A stretch of DNA of 53,107 nucleotides from an uncultured Bacteroidota bacterium. Lineage in GTDB: Bacteria > Bacteroidota > Bacteroidia > Flavobacteriales > Flavobacteriaceae. Positions 2,330 through 41,872 of the stretch are shown in pieces; positions within the stretch are counted from its first letter, which is position 1; every line of letters begins with the position of its first letter. The notes beneath the pieces are model-generated. The model saw nothing but the letters and a program-made list of their open reading frames with translations, searched no databases and was not told the origin of the DNA. The stretch is from contig CABXUL010000008.1 of the NCBI GenBank assembly GCA_902515395.1, positions 1 through 53,107 of the forward strand, given 5' to 3'. Position numbers and translations under genes: made by a program.

Positions 2330-3694
2330 TTAAAAATGATTATTTAATTTATTTTTACCACCATCTTTTAATATTTGGAAGCTGTCAAAAAGCCTTCCTG
2401 TTGGTGTAAATGATTTATATTTTAATAAATCACCATCAATTGAAATATGCTGAAATAATTGTATTTGCTCTCCTGCTTTATCCCTTTTAGCTCCAAATTC
2501 GTCCCAACCTTTTTCATTTATTGAGTACATTTTTGCACCACTCACGGAAACAACATAAACAGGCCCTTTAACAATTTTGGATTTTCCATCTCTGTCCAGT
2601 TGATTTGGATTTTCATAAACAGCCCCTCTTGCATAAGTATGGTCATGACCTTGCAGGGCTAGGTCAACCTGGTATTCATCAAACAATGGCTTCCAATATT
2701 GTCTTAACTCATTATTATCTCTGCCAGTTGAAGCAGAAAAAATAGGGTGGTGGTATGTAACAACAGTCCATTTTTTATCATTTTCAGTTAAAATCTTTTT
2801 TAGCCATTTGGCCTGAAGTTTTATTTTGACATTACTATTAAGAGCTATAATTCTTAAATTAGGATAATCTACATAATAACAGGTTTCTTCCAAACTCTTT
2901 GGACCATTTATAGGTAACGAGAATTGAGGTTGCCATTGAAGAGAGAGAATTTTATTACGGCTTTGTAAACCTCTTTCAGTACTTTGGTATTCATGATTAC
3001 CAGGGACCGCAATAGCAGGAATCTCAGAATGAATAAAGCTGCCTGCGGCAAACCACTCATTCCATTCACTCTCACTGTGAGCTTTATCAACTAAATCTCC
3101 AGCATGAATAAAAAAATCAGCATCTGGAGCTACTTTGTAAGCTTTTCGAATTACTCTTGACCAAAGACTAAGTATATAATTTTGAGCATCACCAACATAT
3201 AAAAAGGATATTGGACTTTCCTTATTGTTAGCTGTTGTAAATTGATGCCATTCGCTTTTAAATTTATTATTACCTACTCGATAAGCATAAAGAGTATTTG
3301 GCTTTAGACCTTCAATTTTTACCTCAAAATAGCTCGACTCGAATCCGTCTATATTTGATCCTTCGGTATTTAATAACGATCTCTTTGCATATTGACGAAT
3401 TTTTTTTCTTCCAAATCTAGGACCATCTCCAGCAATTGCAATTTCTGAATATCCTATATTGTTTGAGGGCTTAGTTCTCCAATTGATCCCAATGGAAGTA
3501 GATGGGTCCATGGTCGCACTTAATATAACATGGTCTGGAAAATCGTCTGGTGCCGCCCATTCTTTTATAATATCACCAAGTTCATTTTTCTGTTTTTGGG
3601 AAAATAATGAGTTATGCTGAAAACAAATTAAGAAAACACCAAGGAATGATTTAATGCAGAATGAAAAAAAGTCGTGGTTTATTATGATTTTCAT
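2330..3694 (-). CDS. Purple acid phosphatase-like metallophosphoesterase
   Basis: The protein has 454 residues with an N-terminal signal segment (about 10-32). An Fn3-like purple acid phosphatase N-terminal domain spans about 50-155, and a calcineurin-like phosphoesterase domain about 160-440. The full metal-binding set is visible: VGDAQ (Asp169), GDLVD (Asp200), GNHEY (Asn233, His234), YHHP (His315, His316) and GHDHTYAR (His350, His352). Purple acid phosphatases hydrolyse phosphomonoesters with a dinuclear metal centre; here the enzyme would act outside the cytoplasm. It lies between the GH78 and PmoA-DUF1080 genes on the same strand, so it is probably part of the glycan operon rather than a general phosphate-starvation enzyme. 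Activity on a phosphate or sulfate ester of the glycan is inference. Confidence 0.88.
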   Translation of the reverse strand: MKIIINHDFFSFCIKSFLGVFLICFQHNSLFSQKQKNELGDIIKEWAAPDDFPDHVILSATMDPSTSIGINWRTKPSNNIGYSEIAIAGDGPRFGRKKIRQYAKRSLLNTEGSNIDGFESSYFEVKIEGLKPNTLYAYRVGNNKFKSEWHQFTTANNKESPISFLYVGDAQNYILSLWSRVIRKAYKVAPDADFFIHAGDLVDKAHSESEWNEWFAAGSFIHSEIPAIAVPGNHEYQSTERGLQSRNKILSLQWQPQFSLPINGPKSLEETCYYVDYPNLRIIALNSNVKIKLQAKWLKKILTENDKKWTVVTYHHPIFSASTGRDNNELRQYWKPLFDEYQVDLALQGHDHTYARGAVYENPNQLDRDGKSKIVKGPVYVVSVSGAKMYSINEKGWDEFGAKRDKAGEQIQLFQHISIDGDLLKYKSFTPTGRLFDSFQILKDGGKNKLNNHF

Positions 3695-3772: not shown

Positions 3773-5395
3773 TCAATAGCTAGCAATATCTATATCTTTA
3801 TACAATATTTCCATATTTCTATTTGAATGAAGCTGGATTCCAACAGGGCCATTAATGTTAGCTTCTTCAAGTTTATAATCCATTACGAAAACTCCATTAA
3901 ACCAAACTCGATACCTGTTTCCTATAGCTTCTGCTTCCATATGATTCCATTCATCCATTTTCAATATCTCTGCAACTTTTAAAGCTTCTTTAGGATATCC
4001 TTTTTTTGGAATGTAAGGCGAACCGGTCATGTCTCTTTTTAACGAACCAGAAACACCTATTTGGATTTGAGGATTAAATTCATCGCCACCTCGCATGAAA
4101 ATACCTGAATCGATATTCCCGTTTATAAATTTAAATTTAAGACGAACTCTAAAATTTTTAAATTCATCTCTCGTCCAAAGTGTTGATCCTTCTTGATCAG
4201 GTCCACTTTTAACTCTCAAATTTCCATCTACAATTGACCACCATATATTGTCATCGTTATTTACCTCACTAACTATTGTACCTTTTTTTTCACGTCTGCG
4301 AGTTTTTATTACCCAATTAGACAAATCACTTCCATCGAAATAGCTTTTATACATATCCTCTGTAAATGTGAACTCCCTTATTTTTTCAGGATCTATAACT
4401 GAGCCACTGTGAATCAACATCCTATGATTAAAAGTTGTAGATTCTCCATCATTAAGAGAAAAATTTAAAACTTCATCACCTTTAGAGAACACCTTTTGAC
4501 CCAATGGATTTGCTGAAAATAGACCATAGTCTCTCGCATGCCAATATGTTGGATAGCCTACGTTATTTGGATGGTCTATAATAGTAATTGATACAGGCTC
4601 CTCATCCATTATGCTGTATAATTTTACCCATTCTGATCTTGTACCCCAAACTTCATTTCCTTCTAGTCCTCTACTACTTAAGTAGTTTCCATTAACTCCG
4701 GTGTTATCTAAAACTTTTACCTCGGTTGGATTTCCCTGAGCATCAACAAATTTTGCTGGCTTCTTAGATGGTAATTCCATCGCACGAGTAACTCGTACTC
4801 CAAAAACTCCCTCTTTATTGTCATCAAAAGACACATCATTAAGTGCTACAAGATTTGTCTTCCTATCAATTATCCTTGTATCTCCTATTTGAGAAAAAAC
4901 AAAGACTGTAGTTTCTTCAAGAATAGGATCACCATTAGTTGTTTGCCATTCACTTTTGGTTTCTATACTACCATTTTCTTGATTTATATCAACTATTTTT
5001 GAATGAACTATTTTACCATAATTTTCGATTTTTTCTTTAGGAATAGCATCTGAATTATTCCAAAAATCAAGACCATTAACATCACCATAATTAAACCAAT
5101 GTCCCATGTGATGCGGATGATCTACTCGTTCTCCTGGCTTTGGATCAATTGGGAAACCTCTAGTTAAAGTTTTCCCACTTGAAGTTATTAATGGAAATAG
5201 AACTGGTTTTGGTAATGACTTATCATAGATATAGCTTGTAAAAAGTACCCCGTTAATTTTTACGTCAATTTTATTATTAAATGTATCGCTAATAAAAACT
5301 ACCGAGGAATTATTATCCTCGGTAGTTTTGGGTTGTCCCTCACAATAACTCATAGTAATTGAAAGGGTTGAAATTAAGAATATTGCCCTAATCAT
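3773..5395 (-). CDS. PmoA family (DUF6807) and DUF1080 fusion protein, exported
   Basis: I start the protein at 5395 (540 residues) because the hydrophobic signal (MIRAIFL...) begins there and lies 11 bases after the stop of the upstream gene; a start at 5458 would add 21 residues and overlap that gene. Residues about 30-345 match the PmoA-like DUF6807 family, with the HPHH stretch, DVNGLDFW and HPNNVGYPTYWHARDYG. Residues about 352-540 form a DUF1080 (3-keto-disaccharide hydrolase) domain with NIDSGIFMRGG and GPVGIQLHSN. DUF1080 proteins have a concanavalin-like fold, and some cleave 3-keto glycosides. The neighbour is a Tat-exported Gfo/Idh/MocA oxidoreductase, which supports an oxidation-then-cleavage role. 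The reaction of the PmoA-like part is unknown. Confidence 0.85.
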   Translation of the reverse strand: MIRAIFLISTLSITMSYCEGQPKTTEDNNSSVVFISDTFNNKIDVKINGVLFTSYIYDKSLPKPVLFPLITSSGKTLTRGFPIDPKPGERVDHPHHMGHWFNYGDVNGLDFWNNSDAIPKEKIENYGKIVHSKIVDINQENGSIETKSEWQTTNGDPILEETTVFVFSQIGDTRIIDRKTNLVALNDVSFDDNKEGVFGVRVTRAMELPSKKPAKFVDAQGNPTEVKVLDNTGVNGNYLSSRGLEGNEVWGTRSEWVKLYSIMDEEPVSITIIDHPNNVGYPTYWHARDYGLFSANPLGQKVFSKGDEVLNFSLNDGESTTFNHRMLIHSGSVIDPEKIREFTFTEDMYKSYFDGSDLSNWVIKTRRREKKGTIVSEVNNDDNIWWSIVDGNLRVKSGPDQEGSTLWTRDEFKNFRVRLKFKFINGNIDSGIFMRGGDEFNPQIQIGVSGSLKRDMTGSPYIPKKGYPKEALKVAEILKMDEWNHMEAEAIGNRYRVWFNGVFVMDYKLEEANINGPVGIQLHSNRNMEILYKDIDIASY

Positions 5396-5405
5396 TAATA
5401 TTAGT

Positions 5406-6788
5406 TTAATATTGAAACACTTTACCTCCAGCCAGTACATCTTGATTTTTTTCATCAAAAGTAGCTTTTAGTCCAGTTCTCATGGAGGCAGTAGTCATGA
5501 TATTGGCAATTGAGTGATTATAACCAACTTCAACAGGAGCATTTGTTTTCTCTCTGCTTCGTATGCACTCCATCCAATTTAACATGTGATTAGAAGTCAT
5601 ATCATCTACTCCAGTATTAGCGGATGTTACAACTTTAGTTTTAATATTGGATAAAGAAAACTCATCCAGCTGATTAGGCTTCATATTCATTGATTTTGAG
5701 TGTCGTTCAGATAGTCCACCATTTGGAGTTACTTTATTTGTCTTCATATTAAGTTCTCCACCGTTGGAATAATAGATTTCTTTTGTTCCACCCGCAGAAT
5801 TTGTAAATCTAGACGAATAAACAACTTGGAATCCAGATGAGAGATCATTTAGCGGACCATAATCAAATACAGCAGTCATAGTATCAAAATTACTTCTACC
5901 GTCCTTCCACAAATAAATTCCTCCATTTGCAGCAACACTTCTTGGATGGGCAAGACCTGAAAACCAGTGAACCGTATCTATTTGATGAGCCATCCATTGC
6001 CCAGGAATACCGGATGAGAAAGGCCAAAATAGTCGATACTCCAGGTATTTCCTTGGATCCCACTTCTCATAGGGTCGGTTCATAAGATATCTTTTCCAGT
6101 CAGTATCTGATTCTCTAATATCACTTACTTTATTTGGGTAAACTCTCCATCTTCCTGGTTGGTTAACATTCCAAGTCATCTCAACCATAACAACATCACC
6201 AAATGCTCCAGATTTAATGTATTTTTCTGCAGCATGGTAGTTCTTTCCGCTTCTTCTCTGAGATCCTACTTGAAGCACAATACCAGCATCATTTGCAGCT
6301 TTAAGTCCTACACGAGCGTCAGCCATTGTCTCAGCAAAAGGCTTTTCGACATAAACATCTTTTTTAGCATTCGCTGCCTGGACGGTATGAAGAGCATGTT
6401 GAAAATCTGCAGTAGAAATAATAACTGCATCAATTTTATTTTTATCATACATTTCTTCATTATTTCTCCAGGTTTTTATTTTATTATCTGTTTTTTCTTC
6501 AAGAAAAGCTTTTCCATCCTCTCTACGTCTGTTCCAAATATCTGAAACCCCTACGATTTGACAGTTTTGATTTTTGGCATGGTTCTGAAAAGCGGGAATT
6601 AATGACCCTTTTGCTCTACTTGAAAAACCAACAATTCCAACATTGATTCTATCATTTGAGCCAATAATTCTTCTATAACTCTCTGCGCTCATTGAGCTAG
6701 AAGATGCACTTACACCACTAATTCCTGAAATAACTCCAGCGGATAATAGTGAAGCGTCTTTGATAAATTTCCTTCTGTTTGAATGCAT
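5406..6788 (-). CDS. Gfo/Idh/MocA family oxidoreductase with Tat signal
   Basis: I choose the ATG at 6788 (460 residues), because it places a twin-arginine signal (RRKFIK, residues 5-10, then a hydrophobic stretch) at the N-terminus. The upstream ATG at 6842 would put it internally and overlap the operator at 6818. A Rossmann domain starts at about 47 (NVGIVGFSSRAKG). The family motif EKP is at 148-150, and MAHQIDTVHW (His268, His274) lies in the substrate domain. Such enzymes oxidise or reduce a sugar hydroxyl with NAD(P), and the Tat route fits export of a folded, cofactor-loaded protein. Some relatives are NAD-dependent glycosidases (GH109, GH188), but I do not see a clear GH109 signature. 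It is first in its transcription unit, followed closely by the PmoA-DUF1080 gene. Confidence 0.9.
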   Translation of the reverse strand: MHSNRRKFIKDASLLSAGVISGISGVSASSSSMSAESYRRIIGSNDRINVGIVGFSSRAKGSLIPAFQNHAKNQNCQIVGVSDIWNRRREDGKAFLEEKTDNKIKTWRNNEEMYDKNKIDAVIISTADFQHALHTVQAANAKKDVYVEKPFAETMADARVGLKAANDAGIVLQVGSQRRSGKNYHAAEKYIKSGAFGDVVMVEMTWNVNQPGRWRVYPNKVSDIRESDTDWKRYLMNRPYEKWDPRKYLEYRLFWPFSSGIPGQWMAHQIDTVHWFSGLAHPRSVAANGGIYLWKDGRSNFDTMTAVFDYGPLNDLSSGFQVVYSSRFTNSAGGTKEIYYSNGGELNMKTNKVTPNGGLSERHSKSMNMKPNQLDEFSLSNIKTKVVTSANTGVDDMTSNHMLNWMECIRSREKTNAPVEVGYNHSIANIMTTASMRTGLKATFDEKNQDVLAGGKVFQY

Positions 6789-6817
6789 TATAATAGATTT
6801 AATATTATTTAAATTAA

Positions 6818-6829
6818 GTGTGCGTACAC
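6818..6829. promoter_or_regulatory. Operator-like palindrome upstream of the Tat oxidoreductase gene
   Basis: GTGTGCGTACAC is a near-perfect dyad (one mismatched pair) with central CG, 29 bases upstream of the start at 6788. On the minus strand it is preceded by TTTTTG and followed by TAATTTAA, with 23 bases between these boxes, so the dyad would sit between the -33 and -7 elements. The same motif recurs at 11803, 13459, 36805 and 50264. Confidence 0.65.
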
Positions 6830-6912
6830 GGAGATATTTCAAAAATATGATTTTTTTTAAATTATTAATTAAGTTATTACGCCTTTTTAGTAATAATTTT
6901 AAGACTGAATTG

Positions 6913-8814
6913 CTACCTAACCTTATTATTTGTTCCCTTGTAAATATTTAATGCGTGGTTAAGCACCCTTACTACATATTTATTTGGATCATTTTTGATC
7001 ATTTCTTTGGATTTCTTTTCTAGATTTCGAACTGTAAAACTAAAATCATCTATAATCAAGGCTGATTGAAGTCTTGTCCACTCATTATCATTATCTAGGC
7101 CCTCGTCAAGTTTTTCTATTACACTACCAGTCTGGAAACCAGTTTTTAAAAGCGCTCTCGTTGCGGCTAAAGCTACATTAATTATTTTGTCTGATTCGAG
7201 TTTTTCTTGAAGAACAGAAATTGTTTTATTACTAATCTTTCGATCCATATTATACAATCCAATAGCCGCCCTATATCTAACTGCCTCGTTTGGATTATTT
7301 AAACCCTCTAATAAAACTTTTTCTTCATTTGAAGAGGAAATAATCAATAAATCATTATAAAACTTAGAATCCTCTCTTAAGATTTTATATATAGGTTTAT
7401 TTTTTGATTTTTCCCAATCACGAATAATAGCTTCGGGGATAAGCCCTACATCCAGAACTTTTTCCATCCATTGATTGTGTACCTCTCTAAGCTCGTTCAA
7501 TTTGTCTTTGTAATCTGGATTTTTTGCTAAGTCGTTAAATTCAAATGGATCCATATTTAAATCGAATAAGGATTCCTCTGGTTTATTAGGTGCAACCAGT
7601 TGTTTTGCCTCAGGACTAAGTTTTCCAGCTTTTTCAGCCTTTCGAAGTTCAGTCATTAGTGGACCACTCTCAGGTGTATTCATAAATTGAATAAAGGGTT
7701 TACTGGGCTCATAATATCTTAAATACTTGTAATCTTTTGTTCTGACTCCCCTTTGCATATCATAACGCTCATCCATTCTACCCCTTGCAATGTGAACGTG
7801 TTCAGACTCAAGGTTTAGTTCTTTTCCAAGAAAAGCCCGTCCCTGCATTGTTGAAGGAACTTTAGCATTAGCCAAATTTAGAACAGTTGGAGCAAGATCA
7901 ATAAAGCTAACCAATCTATTAATTTCACTACCAGGGTCACCAGGATAAAGGTTCTTATAGGTTTCAGGAATATAGACAATTAGGGGTACTTTAACACCTG
8001 TATCAAAAAGCCATCGTTTATGTCGAGGCAAACCAGTTCCATGATCAGAATAAAAGAAAATAATTGTATTGTTACTTTGTCCCGCATCCTCCAAATCTTG
8101 AAGTAAATTACTTATAACAATGTCCATTGTCGCAATATTATCATAATGTCTTGATAATAGTTCTCTAACCAGAGGCGTATCAGGATAATAGGGGGGAACA
8201 TCTATATCTTGAGGATTGATTCGAAGGTGTTTAGGTAGCTCTTTTGTATACTGCTCATGCTTTTGTTTACTATTAATACAACTTTCATGAGTCATTGTCA
8301 AATTAAATATTGAAAAGAAAGGTGTATCCTCTTGAGGTCTATTTTTCCAATGTGCTTGTCTACCTGAATCATCCCATATTTCTCTATTTAAATCAAAATT
8401 ATAATCCTCCTTTGTATTATTAGTACAATAGTACCCCTTACTTCTCAGCACCTCTGGATACATCAACACATCATCTGGTACCCACCCAGCTCTTTTCATC
8501 CATGGCTTTGAAGAAGACCTCATATCTAATGTTCCAAGCGAGGATGGGTACATTCCAGTAATTATCGAATTTCTTGCCGGGGCACAAACGGGAGCATTTG
8601 CAATTGCATTAATATATTTAAAACCTTTTGATGCTAGGCTATCTAATGTTGGGGTATGCGCTTTATTATCTCCATAGCAGCCTAGGTTAGGGCTTATATC
8701 TTCAACAGTTATCCAAAGAATATTTGGTGGTTTTGTATTAGTTCTTTCACAACTAAATATAACACACAGAACTAGTATGTAATTAATAAGTTTAATCTTT
8801 TTTATCAAAATCAA
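6913..8814 (-). CDS. Sulfatase (S1 type) with C-terminal HEAT-like repeats, lipoprotein
   Basis: This 633-residue lipoprotein has lipobox IFSC (Cys22). The alkaline-phosphatase-fold sulfatase domain begins at about 30 with VED (37-39) in place of the common DD metal pair. The formylglycine motif is CAPAR (Cys77 to Arg81), and a downstream YSDHG segment supplies metal ligands. Residues about 490-633 are an added helical region with repeats such as NPNEAVRYRAAIGL and NVALAATRALLKTG, resembling HEAT repeats. General similarity is to heparan N-sulfatase/arylsulfatase A enzymes that carry HEAT extensions in marine bacteria. The start overlaps the end of the preceding sulfatase gene by 23 bases, suggesting translational coupling. 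Activity requires Cys-to-formylglycine conversion by a maturase not encoded here. The target sulfate is unknown. Confidence 0.92.
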   Translation of the reverse strand: MILIKKIKLINYILVLCVIFSCERTNTKPPNILWITVEDISPNLGCYGDNKAHTPTLDSLASKGFKYINAIANAPVCAPARNSIITGMYPSSLGTLDMRSSSKPWMKRAGWVPDDVLMYPEVLRSKGYYCTNNTKEDYNFDLNREIWDDSGRQAHWKNRPQEDTPFFSIFNLTMTHESCINSKQKHEQYTKELPKHLRINPQDIDVPPYYPDTPLVRELLSRHYDNIATMDIVISNLLQDLEDAGQSNNTIIFFYSDHGTGLPRHKRWLFDTGVKVPLIVYIPETYKNLYPGDPGSEINRLVSFIDLAPTVLNLANAKVPSTMQGRAFLGKELNLESEHVHIARGRMDERYDMQRGVRTKDYKYLRYYEPSKPFIQFMNTPESGPLMTELRKAEKAGKLSPEAKQLVAPNKPEESLFDLNMDPFEFNDLAKNPDYKDKLNELREVHNQWMEKVLDVGLIPEAIIRDWEKSKNKPIYKILREDSKFYNDLLIISSSNEEKVLLEGLNNPNEAVRYRAAIGLYNMDRKISNKTISVLQEKLESDKIINVALAATRALLKTGFQTGSVIEKLDEGLDNDNEWTRLQSALIIDDFSFTVRNLEKKSKEMIKNDPNKYVVRVLNHALNIYKGTNNKVR

Positions 8815-10363
8815 ATTGTTTGGCCCAATTAAAATATTCTTTTTTTAAATATTCTGTCTTTTCTGGTTCTTTTTCTAAAAGGTCATTTTCTTCTATAGGA
8901 TCTTCTTTAAGGTTATAGAGCTCCCATTTATTTTTGTTTGAAACCAATTTCCAATTTCGATCCCTGATTGCTTTTCCATTCCTCCATTGCCAGAAAATTG
9001 GTGTTGCTCTTTCATCATTTTGGTTTTCTCCCTTTATTGCAGATAAAAAACTTTTTCCATCAGCTGGTATTATGTTTTGACCATTTAATCTCTTAGGATA
9101 TTCTACATTTAATATCTCTTGGAAGGTAGGTAAGACATCTATAAAATGTATAGGTGTACTTGCAATAATATTTTTATGTTTAATACCTTTAGGCCAAAAA
9201 GCAATTAGTGGAGTTTTAATCCCTCCTTCATGACTCCAGTTTTTGTATTCTCTGTATGGAGTGTTACTTACATTTGCCCAGCTTTTCCCTAAAGATTTCC
9301 AATTGGTTAATGTTCCAATTTCTCCTGTTCCACCACTTAGGTTTACAACCTCCCTCGAGCCTCCATTATCTGAGGCAAAAACAATAAGCGTATTATTTAA
9401 TTCCCCCTTATTCTCTAACATAGAAAGTATTTTCCCAATATTCTGATCCAGCCGATCAATCATAGCAGCATATACCTCCATTGATCTGCTTTCCTCGGCT
9501 CTCTCATCCTTGCTTAGGCTACCCCAGTCTTTGAAAGCAGGAACTGATAGTGAGGCATCTTTTGGGATAATGCCAAGTTCTTTTTGTTTTTTAAATCTAT
9601 CTTGACGAATTTTTTTATAACCTACATTGTAGTAATTTTTATATTTTTCTATATCCTCTGGCCATGCCATGAGGGGGTCATGAGGTGCTGTATAGGCGAG
9701 GTAAAGAAAAAAAGGTTTTTTCTCGTCAATCTTATTAATCCAATTAAGCGCATAATTTGTAAAAACATCGGTAGTGTAAAAATCCTTTGACTTGGGAGTA
9801 TATGGATTAAAAACCTCTCCTTCGATTACCCAATTTCTGTAGGTTGTAGGGCTTCTTTTCATCCAACCTTTTTGAGCTGGTTGACCTTCTCCAGTTCTTT
9901 TTACTCCTGGATTAAAATGATTAGATGCACCATCTAAAAGCCCACTGTAATGATCAAATCCTCTCGTAATCGGGTTTTCTATACTGTGATGTTTTCCAGA
10001 CCAAAGAGTTGTGTAGCCTGCAGATTTAAATAGTTCTCCCAGAGTTATGGCATTTTGCATTTTTAGTCTGAAGGTCTTATGATAACCGATTTGCTGAGAA
10101 TACAAACCTGTTAGAAGGCAAGCTCTTGACGGAAAACATTTAGAGGTGTTATAAGCATTAGTAAATCTAACCCCTTCAAAAGCTAAACGATCAATGTTTG
10201 GAGTTTCAATTTCACTACCATAAGCTCCTATGTCCGAGAACCCCATATCATCAACAAGTATTAAGATGACATTTGGGGGTTGTAAAGAAATAGGTGACTT
10301 ATTACATTTTGAAAAAATTAGAAGAATTAATGCAAAAGTTAGGATGCAATTTCTATAATTCAC
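8792..10363 (-). CDS. Sulfatase (S1 type, CFPSR motif), exported
   Basis: The protein has 523 residues. Its hydrophobic N-terminus ends in FSKC, so it is either a lipoprotein with an atypical lipobox or a Sec substrate. VDDMG (Asp38, Asp39) gives metal ligands, and the formylglycine motif is CFPSR (Cys76 to Arg80) followed by ACLLTG. KHH near residue 125, PHDP and ASDNGG are the usual further sulfatase elements, and the C-terminus ends with the YNLKEDPIEENDL signature common in this family. It belongs to the large arylsulfatase group seen with the SKCFPSR context. It overlaps the upstream double-DUF1080 gene by 11 bases and the downstream sulfatase by 23, so the three genes look co-translated. 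The target sulfate position is not predictable from the motif. Confidence 0.92.
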   Translation of the reverse strand: MNYRNCILTFALILLIFSKCNKSPISLQPPNVILILVDDMGFSDIGAYGSEIETPNIDRLAFEGVRFTNAYNTSKCFPSRACLLTGLYSQQIGYHKTFRLKMQNAITLGELFKSAGYTTLWSGKHHSIENPITRGFDHYSGLLDGASNHFNPGVKRTGEGQPAQKGWMKRSPTTYRNWVIEGEVFNPYTPKSKDFYTTDVFTNYALNWINKIDEKKPFFLYLAYTAPHDPLMAWPEDIEKYKNYYNVGYKKIRQDRFKKQKELGIIPKDASLSVPAFKDWGSLSKDERAEESRSMEVYAAMIDRLDQNIGKILSMLENKGELNNTLIVFASDNGGSREVVNLSGGTGEIGTLTNWKSLGKSWANVSNTPYREYKNWSHEGGIKTPLIAFWPKGIKHKNIIASTPIHFIDVLPTFQEILNVEYPKRLNGQNIIPADGKSFLSAIKGENQNDERATPIFWQWRNGKAIRDRNWKLVSNKNKWELYNLKEDPIEENDLLEKEPEKTEYLKKEYFNWAKQFDFDKKD

Positions 10364-11774
10364 GAATCTTAATATTTTTAAATTTTATATCACCTGGATG
10401 GTGATCTTGAAGTAAAATTCTTCCCTCATTTGCAACTCCAAAGCCTTTTTTATCATAAAATTTACTTTTTTTAATAAGATTTTTGAATGTTTGGGAAAAT
10501 CTGTCATATCTAACGACTAGAATATTGTTTAACCAGTGTTCTACATTTCCCCCCTCTACAATAATCCTTGCTTTATTCCATTCATTTGGTCCTTTTGATC
10601 TTAATTTATAGTTAAGAGATTTATTTTCGATAACATTTCTTTGTAATTCAGATAAGTTTTCTGAGGAAATAAGGTCATACAGTGAACCTACGGTACGGTT
10701 GCCATCAACTCCCATTTTAAAATCTTCATGGGCATCATCAAGAATTTGAAACTCTAGACCTATATTCCTCCCGTCACCGGCGTTAAGAGCATCTACAAAG
10801 TATTTAATTCCACTGTTCCCACCTTTTTGGACTTTAAAATCTAACTCCAATTCAAAATTGCTAAATTTTTCAATAGTAACAATATCACCAGATCTTTTTG
10901 GGTCTTTTTTAATCTTATGAGGATGAAAATGAATAATTCCATTTTCTAAAGTAATTCCAGATTCAGGAAAGAAATCAATTTCAGCACCCTTCCATCCCTT
11001 TGAAGTTTTTCCATCCCAAAGTAATTTCCAACCTTTTCTCTTTTCCTCAGGGGTTAATTTATTGTTTAAATAACTTATTTGTTTAGCATAAGCCATGTTG
11101 GGTGTTTTTCTAGAATCAAGATCTTCAGTAACTATTCTTATATTTTTCCACTTTATAGTTTTTCCTTCAAGCTCTTTTGCACTTATAGAATGTACCTGAA
11201 GTGCTATAAAACCTTCAGAGGTCATATCATCTACTAGATTTGAACATTGAATTCCATTAATGAAAGTTTTAATTGAATTACCAATTGCTTCAATCCTGAC
11301 CTTATTCCAGTAACCATTTCTAAATGCAGCACTTCCATTTTTATTCATCGTTAGTGGATATAACCATCCTCTTCTTCCCTCATCGTAAATTCCACCGGTC
11401 CATGCTCTTTCACTTGTATCTAGCTCCGATTGATAACCGTGAACTCTCCCGTTCCTATAACTTTTTATAGAATTTGATCTAAATTGAATACCTGAGTTTA
11501 GACCAGGTGACACGAGAACTTCAACTTCAAAAATGAAATCTGAATACTTTTTCTTTGTACACAAAAAAGTATTTGGTGTTCCAGCTCTAGAAGTACCTAC
11601 AATAGCATCACCTTCAATTCTGTATTTCGCAGTTCCATTTTTTATTTCCCATCCAGAGAGGTCTTTACCGTTGAATAGTTTTTTCCAGTCAGATTGTGCC
11701 TTAACTTCAAGAGAAAACATTATAGTTGTAATTATCAATAGTAGTTTAGTAAAAATTTTAAATTTGTCTTTCAT
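10353..11774 (-). CDS. Protein with two DUF1080 domains (3-keto-disaccharide hydrolase family)
   Basis: The start at 11774 gives 473 residues and a clean signal peptide ending near KAQ (about 27); an ATG at 11786 adds four residues and cannot be excluded. Two DUF1080 domains follow in tandem. The first, about 29-218, has WKKLFNGKDLSGWE and LNSGIQFRS. The second, about 238-473, has WKLLWDGKTSKGW, GNSGIKYF and ILLQDHHPGDIKFKNIKI. The family folds as a concanavalin-like jelly roll, and some members hydrolyse or eliminate 3-keto glycosides made by sugar dehydrogenases. This is the first gene of the leftward block, transcribed from the divergent region holding the perfect palindrome at 11801. Two domains in one chain suggest either two activities or one catalytic and one binding domain. 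Confidence 0.88.
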   Translation of the reverse strand: MKDKFKIFTKLLLIITTIMFSLEVKAQSDWKKLFNGKDLSGWEIKNGTAKYRIEGDAIVGTSRAGTPNTFLCTKKKYSDFIFEVEVLVSPGLNSGIQFRSNSIKSYRNGRVHGYQSELDTSERAWTGGIYDEGRRGWLYPLTMNKNGSAAFRNGYWNKVRIEAIGNSIKTFINGIQCSNLVDDMTSEGFIALQVHSISAKELEGKTIKWKNIRIVTEDLDSRKTPNMAYAKQISYLNNKLTPEEKRKGWKLLWDGKTSKGWKGAEIDFFPESGITLENGIIHFHPHKIKKDPKRSGDIVTIEKFSNFELELDFKVQKGGNSGIKYFVDALNAGDGRNIGLEFQILDDAHEDFKMGVDGNRTVGSLYDLISSENLSELQRNVIENKSLNYKLRSKGPNEWNKARIIVEGGNVEHWLNNILVVRYDRFSQTFKNLIKKSKFYDKKGFGVANEGRILLQDHHPGDIKFKNIKIREL

Positions 11775-11800
11775 TGTTATAACCATTAGTTATTTGAATA

Positions 11801-11816
11801 TTGTGTGCGCACACAA
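11801..11816. promoter_or_regulatory. Perfect 16-base palindromic operator in the divergent promoter region
   Basis: TTGTGTGCGCACACAA is a perfect inverted repeat with central CG. It lies between the leftward gene starting at 11774 and the rightward gene starting at 11853, so one bound regulator could control both. The core GTGTGCGCACAC (11803-11814) is the most symmetrical member of the set found in this window. Confidence 0.72.
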
Positions 11817-13446: not shown

Positions 13447-13479
13447 TTTGAATTTTTAGTGTTCGAACACGTAAATTAG
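13447..13479 (+). promoter_or_regulatory. Bacteroidota-type promoter with an embedded perfect palindromic operator
   Basis: TTTG at 13447-13450 and TAAATTAG at 13472-13479 resemble the -33 (TTTG) and -7 (TAnnTTTG) elements of Bacteroidota promoters, with 21 bases between them. The spacer contains GTGTTCGAACAC (13459-13470), a perfect dyad. Binding there would block RNA polymerase, so repression relieved by an inducer is the simplest reading. The next gene starts at 13498. Confidence 0.65.
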
Positions 13480-36679: not shown

Positions 36680-36691
36680 GTGTGCTTACAC
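36680..36691. promoter_or_regulatory. Secondary operator-like half-conserved palindrome upstream of susC
   Basis: GTGTGCTTACAC keeps both GTG and CAC arms but has CT instead of the central CG. It lies 125 bases upstream of the equivalent site at 36805, close to a whole number of helical turns, so two bound regulators could face each other. Confidence 0.45.
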
Positions 36692-36793: not shown

Positions 36794-36826
36794 TTAGATC
36801 CCTCGTGTACGTGCACGATATAAATG
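36794..36826 (+). promoter_or_regulatory. Likely susC promoter with embedded operator
   Basis: The dyad GTGTACGTGCAC (36805-36816, flanked by C and G, so 14 bases with one mismatched pair) lies between TTAG at 36794 and TATAAATG at 36819. These are weak matches to the TTTG and TAnnTTTG boxes, separated by 21 bases. The susC start codon is 33 bases further on. The layout copies that at 13447. Confidence 0.55.
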
Positions 36827-36858: not shown

Positions 36859-39800
36859 ATGAATTGTTTTAAAACGGGTACTCTTATTGCCCTTAAAAAG
36901 AAAACCTTTTATATAAGAAATGGTCTTTTTCTGATCATGAGTTTATTCATGACTCAGTTAATGGCTCAGCAAACAGTATCTGGTTTAGTATCAGATTCTG
37001 ACGGACCTCTTCCAGGAGCAACAGTGATTGTTCAGGGAACTAATAACGGTGTATCCACCGATTTTGATGGAAACTTTTCCATTCAAGCAGACGAAGGAGA
37101 TATTCTAGAAATATCTTACGTTGGCTTTCAAACTCAAATGATTACTATTTCAGCTAATCAAGATAGCATTTCAGTTGCACTGATTAGTGACAATGAACTA
37201 GAGGAGATTGTAGTCACGGGTTATGGGACTCAGAAAAAGGTAAATCTTACCGGTGCTGTTGCAGCCGTTACAGGTGAAGTACTTCAGGATCGTCCTATTG
37301 TAAATGTAGGTGAAGGATTACAAGGTGTGATTCCTAACCTTAACATTGATATTAGGAATGGTGATCCAACAACTGCTCCAGAATTTAATATTCGTGGTTT
37401 TGAATCAATTAATGGAGGAACGCCTCTTATTTTAGTTGATAATGTACCGATGGATATAGGAAGTCTTAATCCAAATGACATTGAAAGTATCAGTGTATTG
37501 AAGGATGCATCATCTGCTGCTATTTATGGAGCAAGAGCGGCATTCGGGGTTATTCTTATTACTACCAAGAAAGGCACCACTGGAAAAGCTAAAATTTCAT
37601 TACAAAGTGAATTTGCTTGGGGTACTCCAATAATGCTAATTGACCCAATTGATGATCCATATGCATACGCAGAAGCAAGAAATATTGCAAATTTAAGAAC
37701 TAATGGAGCTGTTGCTTATGATGATGATTATATGGCAGCAGCAGCAATCTACAGAGACAATCCAACACCAGAAAATGCATGGTTTAGGGATGGAACTGAG
37801 ATCAGATACGTTGGTTACAATGACTTTGGAAATCAGTACTTAAGAAAATCTATACCTCAACAAAGGCATAACCTAAGTGTATCTGGTGCTACTGACAAAT
37901 CAAACTATTACGTGTCTCTCGGATTCTTAGAGAAAAAAGGTTGGATAAATATGGATGAGGCTAATATTGACTATGATAGATATAATGTACTAGCTAAAGT
38001 TGATTACCAGATAACTGATTGGTTAGAGATGGATACTAAGACATTATTTACTTTAGAAGAAAATGATGAGCCACACTTTTATCACTGGGACACAAATATT
38101 AATACATTCGCTAGAATGGGAGGAAGAGCAGTTGAGTTTCCAGACCTACCATACTACCTGGTCCCTGGAGATAGAGCTCAATACGAGCAGCACATTGGCC
38201 AAAGGTCTATGACCACTAGTCCTATTCCATACTTAGAACAAGGAGGAAGAGATCTTATGACTAATGCTGATATTCTTTTAACTCAAGGAGTTACTATAAA
38301 GCCAATGAAAAATTTAAAAATTAGAGCGGAATTCTCACCTAACTTTACATACGTATATAGACAAGACCAAAGATCTAAGGTTAGGGGTATTAGAATGAGT
38401 AACTCAATAGATCTATCTAATATTCAATATGTAGAAGGTTTCTCTGCTACTGACTACTTAGAGGAAAGATATGATAAGCGTTTTTATTATGTATTTAATG
38501 CCTTTGCAGATTATACTTTTGAGCCAGAGGATAGTGATCATTATTTTAAGGCAATGGTTGGTTTTAACCAAGAGAAAGGTGATAGACATTATTTAAGAGG
38601 GAAAGCTTACAGCTTAATTACACCTCAAGTTTTAAATATCAATGCTACAGTCGGTGCTCAAGAAGCATACAGTGGAGCTAGTCATGTTTCGTTGAGAGGT
38701 GCTTTTTACAGATTAAATTACATCTTCAAGGATAAATATCTTGTTGAATTAAATGGACGCTACGATGCTAGTTCAAGGTTCCCAACGGATGTTAGATATG
38801 ACTTCTTTCCTTCATTCTCAGCAGGTTGGAGAATCTCTGAAGAACCATTCGTTGCAGATTTAGCTCTTAATTGGCTTGACCAACTAAAGATTAGAGGGTC
38901 ATATGGAGAGCTTGGTAATCAGCTACTTGGAAGTGATTATTATCCTGCGATTCCAACAATGGGATCAGGTACATCGAATTACTTGCTTGCAGCTGGTAAT
39001 AGAGCTCCTTATGTTTCTCCTGCTGGTTTAGTTAGTTCAGATTTAACATGGGAAACAGTTGCTTCAACTAACTTTGGAATTGATGCAACTTTATTAGACA
39101 ACAGATTAGACGTCAGTTTTGATGTATTTACAAGAGAAACAAAAGATATGTTGATGGAGGTAGAGTATCCTCAAATATTAGGTACCTCCGCGCCTAAATC
39201 TAATGCAGCTGATCTTAAAACTACAGGTTGGGAATTATCTGCTACATGGAAAAACCAGATCGATCAAGATTGGTACTATGGAGTAACACTAGCCTTATCT
39301 GACTCACAAGCTGAAATCACTAAATATGACAATCCAACAGGCTCATTGAATGAGTATTATGTTGGACAAACAATTGGAGAGATTTGGGGTTACAGGACTG
39401 GAGGATTGTTCCAAACTGATGCTGCAGCTCAAGAAAATGACCTTTCTGCATTAGGAAACAACTGGCTTGCAGGTGATGTGAACTATTTGGATGTTAATGG
39501 TGATAAGAAAGTTACTCCTGGTAACCAGACTTTAGATGATCCAGGTGATAGAAGAATTATTGGTAATGAAAGTTTAAATTACAGGTTTGGTGTTAATCTT
39601 GACTTAAGATACAAAAACTGGACATTGAATACATTCTTCCAGGGTATCTTACAAGGAGATTACTTTCCTGATACAGGAAATTGGAGAGCTTTCTGGCCAT
39701 GGAACGCAGGACATGGAGAATGGTATTATATAACTGACTCATGGACACCTGAAAATCCTAATGCTTATTTCCCAGCACCACACATTGGATATAATGATAA

Positions 39801-40059
39801 GAAAAATTATGCCGTGAATGATCGTTATTTACAGGACGCTGCATATATAAGGTTAAAGCAGCTTACACTTAACTACAGAGTACCTCAAGATATTGTGGAT
39901 TTAATAGGATTAGCTTCATTAAATCTTTACTACTCTGGTCAAAATCTTTGGGAAGCCACAAACATGAGACCTCCACTTGATCCAGAAGTAAGACCAACTC
40001 TTACTCAGGAATATTACAAGAATAGAACTCACGCTTTCGGTGTAAAGATTGGTTTATAA
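36859..40059 (+). CDS. susC: SusC-like TonB-dependent outer-membrane transporter
   Basis: The 1066-residue protein has a signal region ending near LMAQ (about 36), and a carboxypeptidase-regulatory-like beta domain at about 40-115 (DSDGPLPGATVIVQGTNNG). A TonB-box-like EEIVVTGYGTQKK comes next, then a plug domain (about 130-245, with NIRGFESINGG, LVDNVPMD and VLKDASSAAIYGARAAFGVI) and a 22-strand beta barrel to the end. SusC proteins import oligosaccharides across the outer membrane using TonB energy, with a SusD lid. Its susD partner follows after 19 bases. Two operator-like dyads precede it, so expression is likely to be induced by the glycan. Start is the first ATG after the promoter. Confidence 0.95.
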   Translation: MNCFKTGTLIALKKKTFYIRNGLFLIMSLFMTQLMAQQTVSGLVSDSDGPLPGATVIVQGTNNGVSTDFDGNFSIQADEGDILEISYVGFQTQMITISANQDSISVALISDNELEEIVVTGYGTQKKVNLTGAVAAVTGEVLQDRPIVNVGEGLQGVIPNLNIDIRNGDPTTAPEFNIRGFESINGGTPLILVDNVPMDIGSLNPNDIESISVLKDASSAAIYGARAAFGVILITTKKGTTGKAKISLQSEFAWGTPIMLIDPIDDPYAYAEARNIANLRTNGAVAYDDDYMAAAAIYRDNPTPENAWFRDGTEIRYVGYNDFGNQYLRKSIPQQRHNLSVSGATDKSNYYVSLGFLEKKGWINMDEANIDYDRYNVLAKVDYQITDWLEMDTKTLFTLEENDEPHFYHWDTNINTFARMGGRAVEFPDLPYYLVPGDRAQYEQHIGQRSMTTSPIPYLEQGGRDLMTNADILLTQGVTIKPMKNLKIRAEFSPNFTYVYRQDQRSKVRGIRMSNSIDLSNIQYVEGFSATDYLEERYDKRFYYVFNAFADYTFEPEDSDHYFKAMVGFNQEKGDRHYLRGKAYSLITPQVLNINATVGAQEAYSGASHVSLRGAFYRLNYIFKDKYLVELNGRYDASSRFPTDVRYDFFPSFSAGWRISEEPFVADLALNWLDQLKIRGSYGELGNQLLGSDYYPAIPTMGSGTSNYLLAAGNRAPYVSPAGLVSSDLTWETVASTNFGIDATLLDNRLDVSFDVFTRETKDMLMEVEYPQILGTSAPKSNAADLKTTGWELSATWKNQIDQDWYYGVTLALSDSQAEITKYDNPTGSLNEYYVGQTIGEIWGYRTGGLFQTDAAAQENDLSALGNNWLAGDVNYLDVNGDKKVTPGNQTLDDPGDRRIIGNESLNYRFGVNLDLRYKNWTLNTFFQGILQGDYFPDTGNWRAFWPWNAGHGEWYYITDSWTPENPNAYFPAPHIGYNDKKNYAVNDRYLQDAAYIRLKQLTLNYRVPQDIVDLIGLASLNLYYSGQNLWEATNMRPPLDPEVRPTLTQEYYKNRTHAFGVKIGL

Positions 40060-40078
40060 TTTTAAAAGATTTTAAAAG

Positions 40079-41872
40079 ATGAAAAATTTAACAAAAAATA
40101 TAATCAGAAGCTTTGCAGTTCTTTTTCTATTAATTGGCTGTAATGATGAATTTCTTGAAAGATCACCGCTAGATGAAATTAGCAACTCTTCTTTTTGGAA
40201 TACAGAAAATGACTTAATGGTATATAATCATAGATTTTATGATTTGACCAAGAATGACAAGGACTACCCAATTTTAATGGGTCATGATGATGGATTTGAT
40301 AGCCATAGGATATCATATTTGCATCTTGACGGAATGTCAGATAATACATCTCCGAGACATGGTAGACACACTGCATATCAGCAAATAAGAGCTGGTAAAT
40401 ATAATGCACCTTCTTCTAGTGGTTCAAATGCTGCTGCTGGATGGTATGGTTATAAGGGTTTTGGACTTATTAGAGCTATTAATATTGGCCTTGCACAGTA
40501 TGATAAGGCAGATATTCCTGATGAGGCTAAAAATCACTATAAAGCCGAAGCGAGACTCTTTAGAGCTATGTTCTACGCTGATAAGATCAAAAATTTTGGA
40601 TCTGTTCAATGGGTGGAGAATGAGGTAACTACTGCTGATGAGGACATCCTTTACGGAACTAGAGATTCTAGAGACTTTGTTATGGGTAAGGTCATGGAAG
40701 ATTTAACTTTTGCTGCTGCTAATATCCGTGATAATAGTGATCAGCATAAATTAACTAAATCTTCAGCTTTACTGATGATGTCAAGAATTTGTTTGCTTGA
40801 GGGTACCTGGAGAAAATACCATGGCTTAGGAAATGAAACAACTTGGCTTCAAGCTGCTGCTGATGCTGCTAAACAATTAATAGATGGTGGTAAGCATAGT
40901 TTACATAAAGGTGCTGCTGGTAGGACATATAATGAGCTACATAGCACAGAAGATCTTGGAGGTAATAAAGAAGTTATTTTCTTTCAAAGATATGAGAGGG
41001 GTACAAGAACTAATCATGTTCAATCATACAATAGAGGATATAATGGAGGAGCAACCAAAGATATGGTAGAAGATTATCTTTGTTCTGATGGACTTCCTAT
41101 TAGCCTATCTCCCCTCTATAAGGGTGATGCTACATATGAGGATATATTTGTTGATAGAGATCCAAGGTTAAGACAATCTATATTACATCCTGCTGATCAA
41201 GCAATTTATAGGTATGGAAATCACGACTTTGGTGCTAATGCTTATCCTCGAATTCAGGGTATGTCCGGTGGGCTTAGAATATATACTGGATATCATATAA
41301 TTAAAGTATATAATGTTACTTCAGCTCATGCATCATATAACTCTTCAGTCACACCCGGCTTATCAATGAGATACGCTGAGGCTCTTTTGAATTATGCTGA
41401 AGCTAAAGCCGAATTAGGAAACGGATCTATTTCTCAAGCTGATCTTGATATTAGTATTAATAAATTAAGAGACAGAGATGGAATGGTTCATCTTACTAAT
41501 ACTCCTCAAATGGATCCTCGTTATGCTGATCTAGGAATTTCAGCTGCTTTAGTTGAAATCAGAAGAGAAAGACGAGTAGAATTATTTTTTGAAGGTTTCC
41601 GATATGATGATTTAAGAAGGTGGAAACAAGGTAAAAAACTTGAGAAAAAGGATTATGGTATGCGATGGGATGATGCCAATAAAAACAGAGTTGACCCAGA
41701 CGGGAAAGCAACTGTTCAAGTAGGTAGCGTTAATGGAGTGTCATATCTTGAGCCTTATAAGGGAACTGATTTTGAAACTCCTGTGTTCGATGATAGTAAA
41801 CATTATTACTGGCCATTGCCACTGAATGTTTTATCTCAGAATCCTGCTCTTGAGCAAAATCCAGGATGGTAA
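40079..41872 (+). CDS. susD: SusD-like surface glycan-binding lipoprotein (RagB/SusD family)
   Basis: This 597-residue lipoprotein has lipobox LIGC (Cys21), then FLERSPLDEISNSSFWN, the classical opening of SusD proteins. Tetratricopeptide-like helices follow, with AEARLFRAMFYADKIKNFGSVQWVE at about 155-180 as the family signature. RYAEALLNYAEAKAELG and EIRRERRVELFFEGFRYDDLRRWK near the C-terminus are also diagnostic, and the protein ends at LEQNPGW. It forms the lid on the SusC barrel and binds oligosaccharides at the cell surface. The gene is immediately downstream of susC, and a strong hairpin follows 26 bases after its stop. Confidence 0.96.
   Translation: MKNLTKNIIRSFAVLFLLIGCNDEFLERSPLDEISNSSFWNTENDLMVYNHRFYDLTKNDKDYPILMGHDDGFDSHRISYLHLDGMSDNTSPRHGRHTAYQQIRAGKYNAPSSSGSNAAAGWYGYKGFGLIRAINIGLAQYDKADIPDEAKNHYKAEARLFRAMFYADKIKNFGSVQWVENEVTTADEDILYGTRDSRDFVMGKVMEDLTFAAANIRDNSDQHKLTKSSALLMMSRICLLEGTWRKYHGLGNETTWLQAAADAAKQLIDGGKHSLHKGAAGRTYNELHSTEDLGGNKEVIFFQRYERGTRTNHVQSYNRGYNGGATKDMVEDYLCSDGLPISLSPLYKGDATYEDIFVDRDPRLRQSILHPADQAIYRYGNHDFGANAYPRIQGMSGGLRIYTGYHIIKVYNVTSAHASYNSSVTPGLSMRYAEALLNYAEAKAELGNGSISQADLDISINKLRDRDGMVHLTNTPQMDPRYADLGISAALVEIRRERRVELFFEGFRYDDLRRWKQGKKLEKKDYGMRWDDANKNRVDPDGKATVQVGSVNGVSYLEPYKGTDFETPVFDDSKHYYWPLPLNVLSQNPALEQNPGW

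Follow-up and report, generated by a model that had tools for sequence, protein, structure and literature searches.

What would a sugar oxidoreductase that is probably exported do, in company with domains of the DUF1080 (PF06439) and DUF6807 (PF14100) families, in a locus for the breakdown of a sulfated polymer? The question is raised by a block of leftward genes on contig C8 of an uncultured Flavobacteriaceae bacterium, whose genome as assembled comprises 1.67 Mb and is 68 per cent complete; the contig was analysed in its entirety (53,107 bases) and is referred to here as the window. The block encodes, in this order, a double DUF1080 protein, a sulfatase, a sulfatase with HEAT repeats, a Gfo/Idh/MocA oxidoreductase with a signal for the twin-arginine translocation (Tat) route, named TatGFO here, a DUF6807-DUF1080 fusion, and a phosphoesterase (Table 1). 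We propose, with a probability of roughly 0.65, that the genes of the block are regulated together and make up a single exported module, which breaks glycosidic bonds by redox chemistry. The proposal draws on the observed gene set, its co-conservation, its gene fusions and its common operator.

An earlier account of the window, made from its letters alone (the sequence-only reading), had named a Tat-type Gfo/Idh/MocA gene, a PmoA-DUF1080 fusion gene directly after it and a tandem DUF1080 gene. All three are real, as judged by matches to PF01408, PF14100 and PF06439, and both DUF1080 proteins pass the PF06439 cut-off of 26.8 bits (276.6 and 101.3 bits). The interval given for them (5406-11774) holds the genes as described, except that most of the fusion gene (3773-5395) lies to its left; likewise, the double DUF1080 and oxidoreductase genes do stand in one leftward block, but two sulfatase genes lie between them, and the block therefore consists of two operons with one operator apiece. 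TatGFO is probably Tat-exported because of its NRRKFIK twin-arginine motif, and the fusion and the double DUF1080 protein are, judging from their sequences, probably exported too. In a nine-row alignment the twin-arginine RR, the F and I of RRKFIK, the lysine of an EKP motif, and H269, D272 and H275 are invariant, and the orthologue from Granulicella tundricola matches the Pfam TAT_signal model just under its cut-off. The closest solved chains to TatGFO are 8tdf and 8tdh, both titled 'Dehydrogenase'. No chain named as GH109, an NAD-dependent glycosidase sharing the Gfo/Idh/MocA fold, was among the 43 matches listed at an E value of 0.001 in a single search, an absence that excludes little.

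A scan of public genomes with the fusion protein yielded 16 loci (L009-L024, taken with 10 kb flanks); the close relatives of this genome are Flavobacteriaceae and Bacteroidetes assemblies, several under marine-sounding titles. Fifteen of them form one lineage in which the gene order of the leftward block is retained as far as the contigs extend, with an additional gene between both sulfatase genes in L017, L019 and L021 (a GH28 gene in L017, the one tested). DUF6807 and DUF1080 are fused in 13 relatives and encoded by two adjacent genes in two (L022, L023), and 14 of the 15 loci of the lineage have the phosphoesterase gene downstream; the contig of L016 stops before that place. TatGFO is the best conserved protein of the block across the lineage (85-98 per cent identity). 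The sixteenth locus, L024, encodes a TonB receptor, a single DUF1080 protein, TatGFO and DUF6807, and no sulfatase was seen on its 9.8 kb; its contig is labelled as a Thalassobius assembly, is in our judgement Bacteroidota-like in gene content, and is possibly misbinned.

The TatGFO family was then delimited by searching 296 Bacteroidota genomes with an alignment query, up to five best candidates being scored per genome. By sequence comparison TatGFO is a sharp orthologous group: orthologues occur in 18 of the 296 genomes, one in each, the weakest at 2e-209, and nothing further was found at or below 1e-100. DUF1080 and/or DUF6807 is encoded near TatGFO in 16 of the 17 other genomes; a DUF1080 gene adjoins it on the same strand in 12 (a double one in nine), and six have a DUF6807 gene no more than about 5 kb away on that strand, in five of them as the immediate neighbour. 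At the level of whole genomes (295 others), TatGFO (17) and a full double DUF1080 (54) occur together in 14 (p 5e-9), and TatGFO and the type-A subfamily of DUF6807 defined below (14) in nine (p 1e-9), where the p-values take no account of relatedness and the identities were already known when type A was defined. Co-occurrence across Bacteroidota loci, which the sequence-only reading had put forward as a check, supports the association. The TatGFO-DUF6807 pair occurs in two phyla: in the acidobacterium Granulicella tundricola a TatGFO (57.5 per cent identity) and a DUF6807 protein (49.3 per cent) are encoded adjacently, behind an outer-membrane receptor. This locus and three other compact ones with an uptake receptor, i.e., L024 (TonB receptor-DUF1080-TatGFO-DUF6807), L169 (SusCD-TatGFO-DUF1080) and L185 (SusCD-DUF1080-TatGFO), the surroundings of all four being only partly scanned, fit a self-standing module. 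TIM-barrel proteins matching AP_endonuc_2 flank TatGFO in L171, L172 and L182 and are possibly eliminases that replace or supplement DUF1080. As a side observation, the UxaC gene beside TatGFO in L181 and a GH28 gene near the double DUF1080-TatGFO genes in L173 are hints of uronate substrates.

The two operons were said to be controlled by similar operators, and GTGTNCGNACAC is indeed present as a perfect copy both at 6818-6829 and at 11803-11814. The element has four copies in the 68-per-cent-complete genome, three of them in the window, and its reversed control core has none. Within two mismatches of the 14-base palindrome, four sites were observed in the window against 0.6 expected; when 30 half-site orderings were compared in the window plus six chosen, non-random stretches of the genome, the real ordering scored 4 and the other 29 together 1. 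All 14 relatives that cover the region ahead of TatGFO (L018, the contig of which is without it, was excluded) have the element there, 27-35 bases from the TatGFO start and with one mismatch at most, and several relatives have sites with at most one mismatch ahead of the double DUF1080 gene; in L024 a copy was looked for and none was found. The fourth perfect copy, at C10:12447, opens a cluster of the order sulfatase-DUF6807-Gfo-Gfo, the sole other DUF6807 locus found in this incomplete genome, and through the common operator the leftward block and this second DUF6807 locus are linked. The open reading frame (ORF) of the C10 sulfatase, as called mechanically, starts 2 bases before the operator, so that the true start must lie later. 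The cluster itself (L077, 4646-10210) contains genes for a sulfatase, DUF6807, a Gfo protein and a Gfo-like protein (Oxidoreduct_C). One LacI-family gene is present in the partial genome (C48), and no link was made from it to the operator.

Pfam now names PF06439 '3-keto-disaccharide hydrolase'. The DUF1080 fold of the fusion was taken from a full-length model with a predicted local distance difference test score (pLDDT) of 67 overall, which was used for the DUF1080 half only because its DUF6807 half is poor. It matches 9fbe with a Z score of 19.0 (root-mean-square deviation, rmsd, 2.4; 173 residues aligned), 8v31 with 17.8, and 8tda and 8rr2 with 17.6, all of which are, by their PDB titles, structures of 3-keto-glycoside eliminase/hydratases or 3-keto-2-hydroxy-glucal hydratases; other DUF1080 structures without a stated function match at 17.3-18.9. 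Sequence comparison gave matches of the second DUF1080 repeat in the double protein to 8v31 (2.7e-26), 8rr2 (1.8e-24) and 8tda (2e-24), and residues 33-477 of the double protein match 4jqt (BT3469) with an E value of 8.5e-140. Compared by eye, the three DUF1080 domains of the window share E/Q-x-E/Q, R...Y, aromatic-x-N and Q-x-H positions. By analogy with the solved enzymes, we propose that these domains are 3-keto-glycoside eliminase/hydratases. The double DUF1080 protein was also considered as an exclusive partner of TatGFO and rejected as such: a full one occurs in 54 of the 295 other genomes, mostly without TatGFO, and adjoins TatGFO in nine, and it is therefore not dedicated to TatGFO. 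A DUF1080 subtype marked by SLKRDM was met in no setting other than fusion with DUF6807 or a shared gene cluster, in loci that had been collected around these genes and are not independent.

PF14100 is named DUF6807 in Pfam today, the name 'PmoA' being merely historical. Particulate methane mono-oxygenase subunit A is an integral-membrane helical protein; a methane-oxygenase reading of the old name was rejected because of the DUF6807 fold model, which is nearly all strand with two short helices and is galactose-mutarotase-like at modest confidence. The model of DUF6807 by itself has a mean pLDDT of 61.5. Foldseek matched it to galactose mutarotases, with a best E value of 2.7e-5 (1ns4, TM-score 0.43, rmsd 10.4) and TM-scores of at most 0.43 among the 50 matches listed. 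The VIA comparison gave Z scores of 14-15 over about 220-260 residues to galactose mutarotases, the PL26 rhamnogalacturonan lyase and C-terminal domains of beta-galactosidases; the top row was 5cd6, titled TPR-domain containing protein (Z 15.4), and the fold family was consistent across rows. We assign DUF6807, with modest confidence, to the galactose-mutarotase-like beta-supersandwich fold. Four residues are near-invariant in 80 aligned rows, many of them close relatives, i.e., H116 (79/80), R222 (80/80), W277 (80/80) and N299 (79/80), numbered in the fusion ORF from 5458; we read them as a putative active site, a reading and not a proof. This set is particular to DUF6807, and the model is too poor around HPHH for its residues to be placed against the catalytic His/Asp/Glu set of aldose 1-epimerases.

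PF14100 proteins are encoded in 39 of the 296 Bacteroidota genomes. When DUF6807 loci with 1.5 kb flanks were taken, one per genome, 20 of 29 had a Gfo/Idh/MocA gene on either strand and 2 of 29 a DUF1080 gene, against 0 of 30 SusD control loci of the same geometry with either neighbour; the 29 exclude the two loci of this genome, and the Gfo, DUF1080 and DUF6807 profiles were self-built from a collection to which the test loci belong (the Gfo profile with the 29 DUF6807 loci in and the 30 SusD loci out). Across 60 wider fetched stretches with 65 distinct DUF6807 ORFs (one being the C10 copy of this genome), 33 ORFs have a Gfo gene up to 3 kb away on their own strand, five have a DUF1080 gene there and three have both; weaker DUF6807 matches, mostly ORFs of about 1,280 amino acids and fragments, fall outside this set. 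The type-A subfamily comprises 16 ORFs from 14 other genomes that are 44-57 per cent identical to the domain in the window (the rest, 16-32 per cent), and has Gfo within 3 kb in 9 of 16 cases and DUF1080 in 4 of 16. A fusion in the reverse order, DUF1080-DUF6807, occurs in L064 directly ahead of a Gfo/Idh/MocA gene, in a genome where the 296-genome search found no TatGFO orthologue. By neighbourhood and by fusions in both orders, DUF6807 is probably tied to Gfo/Idh/MocA chemistry. Published passages in two papers that mention it give no function for it, and our literature searches found no paper naming DUF6807 in oxidation-elimination chemistry.

Four long DUF6807 ORFs were scanned against Pfam: two are DUF6807-ThuA fusions, one has DUF7133, HEAT repeats and cytochrome c in addition, and one has nothing more. 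The ThuA fusions (L072, 6081-8129; L091, 5814-8078) adjoin Gfo/Idh/MocA gene pairs in other Bacteroidota; ThuA is encoded by one of the thuAB trehalose genes, which are connected with 3-ketotrehalose. The ORF with cytochrome c (L104, 3820-7662) is 1,280 amino acids long, and DUF6807 ORFs of similar length recur elsewhere.

How, then, might the module work? TatGFO would cross the membrane by the Tat route with its nicotinamide cofactor bound, and would turn one of the secondary hydroxyl groups of a (desulfated) sugar into a keto group, and the acidified neighbouring C-H would allow beta-elimination of the glycosidic bond. The keto-glycal from this elimination would be hydrated, the DUF1080 domains being predicted to hydrate and probably to eliminate too; DUF6807 would take another step, either elimination or an adjustment of the anomer or epimer of the keto sugar, and the same TatGFO would re-reduce the keto sugar. 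The oxidation, elimination and hydration are modelled on the reactions of the relatives named; the step given to DUF6807 and the use of the cofactor are guesses, and so is the substrate, probably a sulfated glycan containing uronate or rhamnose. A bolder idea, which we put forward tentatively and consider somewhat doubtful, is that DUF6807 constitutes a novel enzyme family with a beta-supersandwich resembling that of polysaccharide lyases, which breaks the glycosidic bond of the keto-glycosides made by TatGFO through elimination and, with its fused DUF1080 domain, forms a bifunctional eliminase-hydratase for linkages closed to the hydrolases of the locus.

Several observations weigh against such a module. 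DUF6807 is often without the proposed partners: 32 of the 65 ORFs, many of them of about 400-430 amino acids, and 7 of the 16 of type A lack a same-strand Gfo/Idh/MocA gene within 3 kb, only 5 of the 65 have a DUF1080 gene that near, and on a Gemmatirosa plasmid our own profiles found neither partner in 17 kb. TatGFO scores 92 bits with the NCBIfam model NF058561 (BT_2158 glycoside 3-dehydrogenase), the cut-off of which is 750. It has neither partner in one of the 17 genomes (L181, where it adjoins the gene for glucuronate isomerase UxaC), and the TatGFO-DUF6807 pair is without a neighbouring DUF1080 gene in L171, L172, L174 and L177 and, by an own-profile scan, in Granulicella. A full double DUF1080, for its part, mostly occurs without TatGFO, and the DUF1080 fold of the fusion resembles the galectin-like 1oq1 (Z 17.1) and lectins (15-16) nearly as well as it does the solved enzymes.

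The pairs without an adjoining DUF1080 gene, the resemblance of the DUF1080 fold to galectin-like, lectin and CBM66 domains (Z 15-17) and the nearness of the DUF6807 model to galactose mutarotases would all suit sugar modification without cutting, in which TatGFO oxidises a free or terminal sugar, DUF6807 acts as mutarotase or epimerase, TatGFO re-reduces the product and the epimerised sugar is imported, while DUF1080 mainly binds. We consider this unlikely: DUF1080 adjoins TatGFO in 12 of 17 genomes, and those of L171, L172, L174 and L177 each have a full double DUF1080 elsewhere; DUF1080 structures, including the solved eliminase/hydratases, score higher (17.3-19.0) than the galectin-like fold (17.1) and lectins (15-16); the four sets of shared positions are retained in all three window domains; and in L171 and L172 the protein beside TatGFO has the TIM-barrel fold, which the published passages report for a 3-keto-glycoside eliminase (PMC10628242). 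Chance neighbourhood is very improbable, i.e., that DUF1080, DUF6807 and Gfo/Idh/MocA genes are independent and merely frequent in polysaccharide loci. With 20 Gfo/Idh/MocA and 9 DUF1080 matches in 1.67 Mb some neighbours are expected, but SusD loci, a hallmark of polysaccharide loci, gave none in 30, and the fusions in both orders, the TatGFO-DUF6807 pair in two phyla and the compact, partly scanned receptor loci (L024, L169, L185) speak against it too. An extension compatible with the exported module, in which a cytosolic Gfo/Idh/MocA protein (18572) and a short-chain dehydrogenase/reductase (SDR, 32777) complete one redox pathway with it, is improbable. Both genes share the rightward block of the locus, and an SDR gene adjoins DUF6807 in L169. 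No positive link was found, the relatives' loci with their 10 kb flanks stopping short of the corresponding position; the Gfo protein passes no NCBIfam cut-off, and among the 25 best models listed the SDR passes only that of the broad PRK07231 (218.5 bits, cut-off 215). The exported oxidation-cleavage module of the sequence-only reading is favoured by DUF1080 and/or DUF6807 near 16 of 17 orthologues, by the common operators and by the fold match to solved eliminase/hydratases, from which its activity would follow by analogy.

A 3-keto-glycoside pathway of Bacteroides thetaiotaomicron, BT2157/BT2158, was reportedly described in 2024 by Nasseri and by Kastner. The window module resembles it, by analogy, in combining a periplasmic Gfo/Idh/MocA dehydrogenase with a DUF1080 eliminase/hydratase in an oxidation-elimination-hydration logic, and differs from it in that TatGFO fails the BT_2158 model (92 against 750 bits), that DUF1080 is present in double and fused form, and that the module has sulfatases, an operator of its own and DUF6807, which we take the BT2157/BT2158 operon to lack. 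In the published passages, BT2158 is given as a periplasmic glycoside 3-dehydrogenase (PMC11300592). For Caulobacter crescentus, the passages in PMC9007349 report genetic support for 3-oxidation paired with the DUF1080 protein CCNA_01705; LacABC with CCNA_01705 is like the window module in placing periplasmic 3-oxidation before a DUF1080 protein, and unlike it in that LacABC is a membrane-bound three-component dehydrogenase and that those passages contain no DUF6807. The combination that the sequence-only reading named its best candidate for an undescribed system would follow a reaction principle (oxidation-elimination-hydration by Gfo/Idh/MocA and DUF1080 proteins) already known from these passages (PMC9007349) and from PDB titles. 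What is new is the TatGFO orthologous group, its tie to DUF6807, both fusion orders, and the operator in a sulfated-polysaccharide locus, none of which was found described in literature searches.

Other known proteins illuminate single parts. BT3469 (PDB 4jqt) has the same two-domain architecture as the double DUF1080 protein and is solved, listed merely as a putative glycosyl hydrolase. Agrobacterium AtOGE is, according to the published passages, an O-glycoside eliminase of 3-keto-glycosides with a TIM-barrel fold (PMC10628242). Such an enzyme was considered as a hidden part of the window and rejected: neither the window proteins nor L009-L024 gave a match to a profile built from the TIM-barrel proteins of L171, L172 and L182. 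The elimination step in the window would be filled by DUF1080 and DUF6807 in place of an AtOGE-type enzyme. Galactose mutarotases and PL26 beta-supersandwich enzymes are alike in fold to the DUF6807 model (Z 14-15), at 4-14 per cent identity among the matches listed. Lac161_ORF9, a PF14100 protein from a soil metagenome clone, belongs to a putative sugar-use operon, and the published passages name two new beta-galactosidases and an enolase-superfamily protein as neighbours and no Gfo/Idh/MocA or DUF1080 protein (PMC5342196).

Table 1. Positions of the leftward block, its operators and related features in the window
Feature	Position	Strand	Basis and remarks
TatGFO, Gfo/Idh/MocA oxidoreductase	5406..6788 (ORF 5406-6842; likely start ATG 6786-6788)	-	PF01408 65.6 bits; NRRKFIK twin-arginine motif
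DUF6807-DUF1080 fusion, directly after TatGFO	3773..5395 (ORF 3773-5458, likely start 5395)	-	PF14100 244.6 bits, PF06439 101.3 bits
Double DUF1080 protein	10353..11786	-	PF06439 x2 (two stretches), 276.6 bits
Sulfatase, gene 2 of double-DUF1080 operon	8792..10363	-	PF00884 187.4 bits; order kept in relatives reaching that far
Sulfatase with HEAT repeats, gene 3 of double-DUF1080 operon	6913..8814	-	PF00884 117.7 bits, PF13646 31.7 bits; order kept in relatives reaching that far
Purple-acid-phosphatase-like phosphoesterase, downstream of fusion	2330..3694	-	PF00149, PF16656
Operator GTGTGCGTACAC, 29 bp upstream of TatGFO start	6818..6829	.	Perfect copy of GTGTNCGNACAC; at most one mismatch in 14/14 relatives
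Operator GTGTGCGCACAC, between divergent double-DUF1080 and sulfatase genes	11803..11814	.	Perfect copy of GTGTNCGNACAC
Operator GTGTTCGAACAC, upstream of sulfatase at 13498	13459..13470	.	Perfect copy of GTGTNCGNACAC
Operator-like near-site GTGTGCTTACAC, upstream of SusC	36680..36691	.	
Operator-like near-site GTGTACGTGCAC, upstream of SusC	36805..36816	.	
SusC-SusD uptake pair, same polysaccharide locus	36859..41872	+	PF07715/PF00593 and PF07980; operator near-sites upstream

The locus in which the block stands is for sulfated polymer breakdown. By domain searches its rightward part encodes many sulfatases, a GH92 protein, two GH88-type proteins, three heparinase II/III-like proteins, SusC and SusD, together with a BNR_4 protein that resembles a rhamnosidase family with a score under the cut-off of that family. 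We infer uronate and rhamnose as components of the polymer because the GH88 proteins and the rhamnosidase-like protein are present. Three phosphoesterases are encoded in this sulfated-polysaccharide locus, the purple-acid-phosphatase-like one downstream of the fusion gene (2330-3694) and two PhoD-like ones (31303-32760 and 48724-50205), and a GH88-DUF1961 fusion is found at 24042-25874, DUF1961 having no function in Pfam. Elsewhere in the same genome, consecutive DUF1080, Gfo/Idh/MocA, DUF1080 and Gfo/Idh/MocA genes form a second redox cluster (L146 on C45, 143-4586), and a gene for a TIM-barrel protein (AP_endonuc_2 profile) lies beside an opposite-strand DUF1080 gene (L148 on C24, 1716-3394).

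DUF6807 gains from this analysis a concrete, testable role, and a three-part set of TatGFO, DUF6807 and DUF1080 is defined that can be expressed together. The findings suggest that marine polysaccharide loci, too, include the route without hydrolysis that other bacteria are known to use on small glycosides. If DUF6807 is indeed an eliminase, redox chemistry would open linkages that the hydrolases of the locus leave closed.

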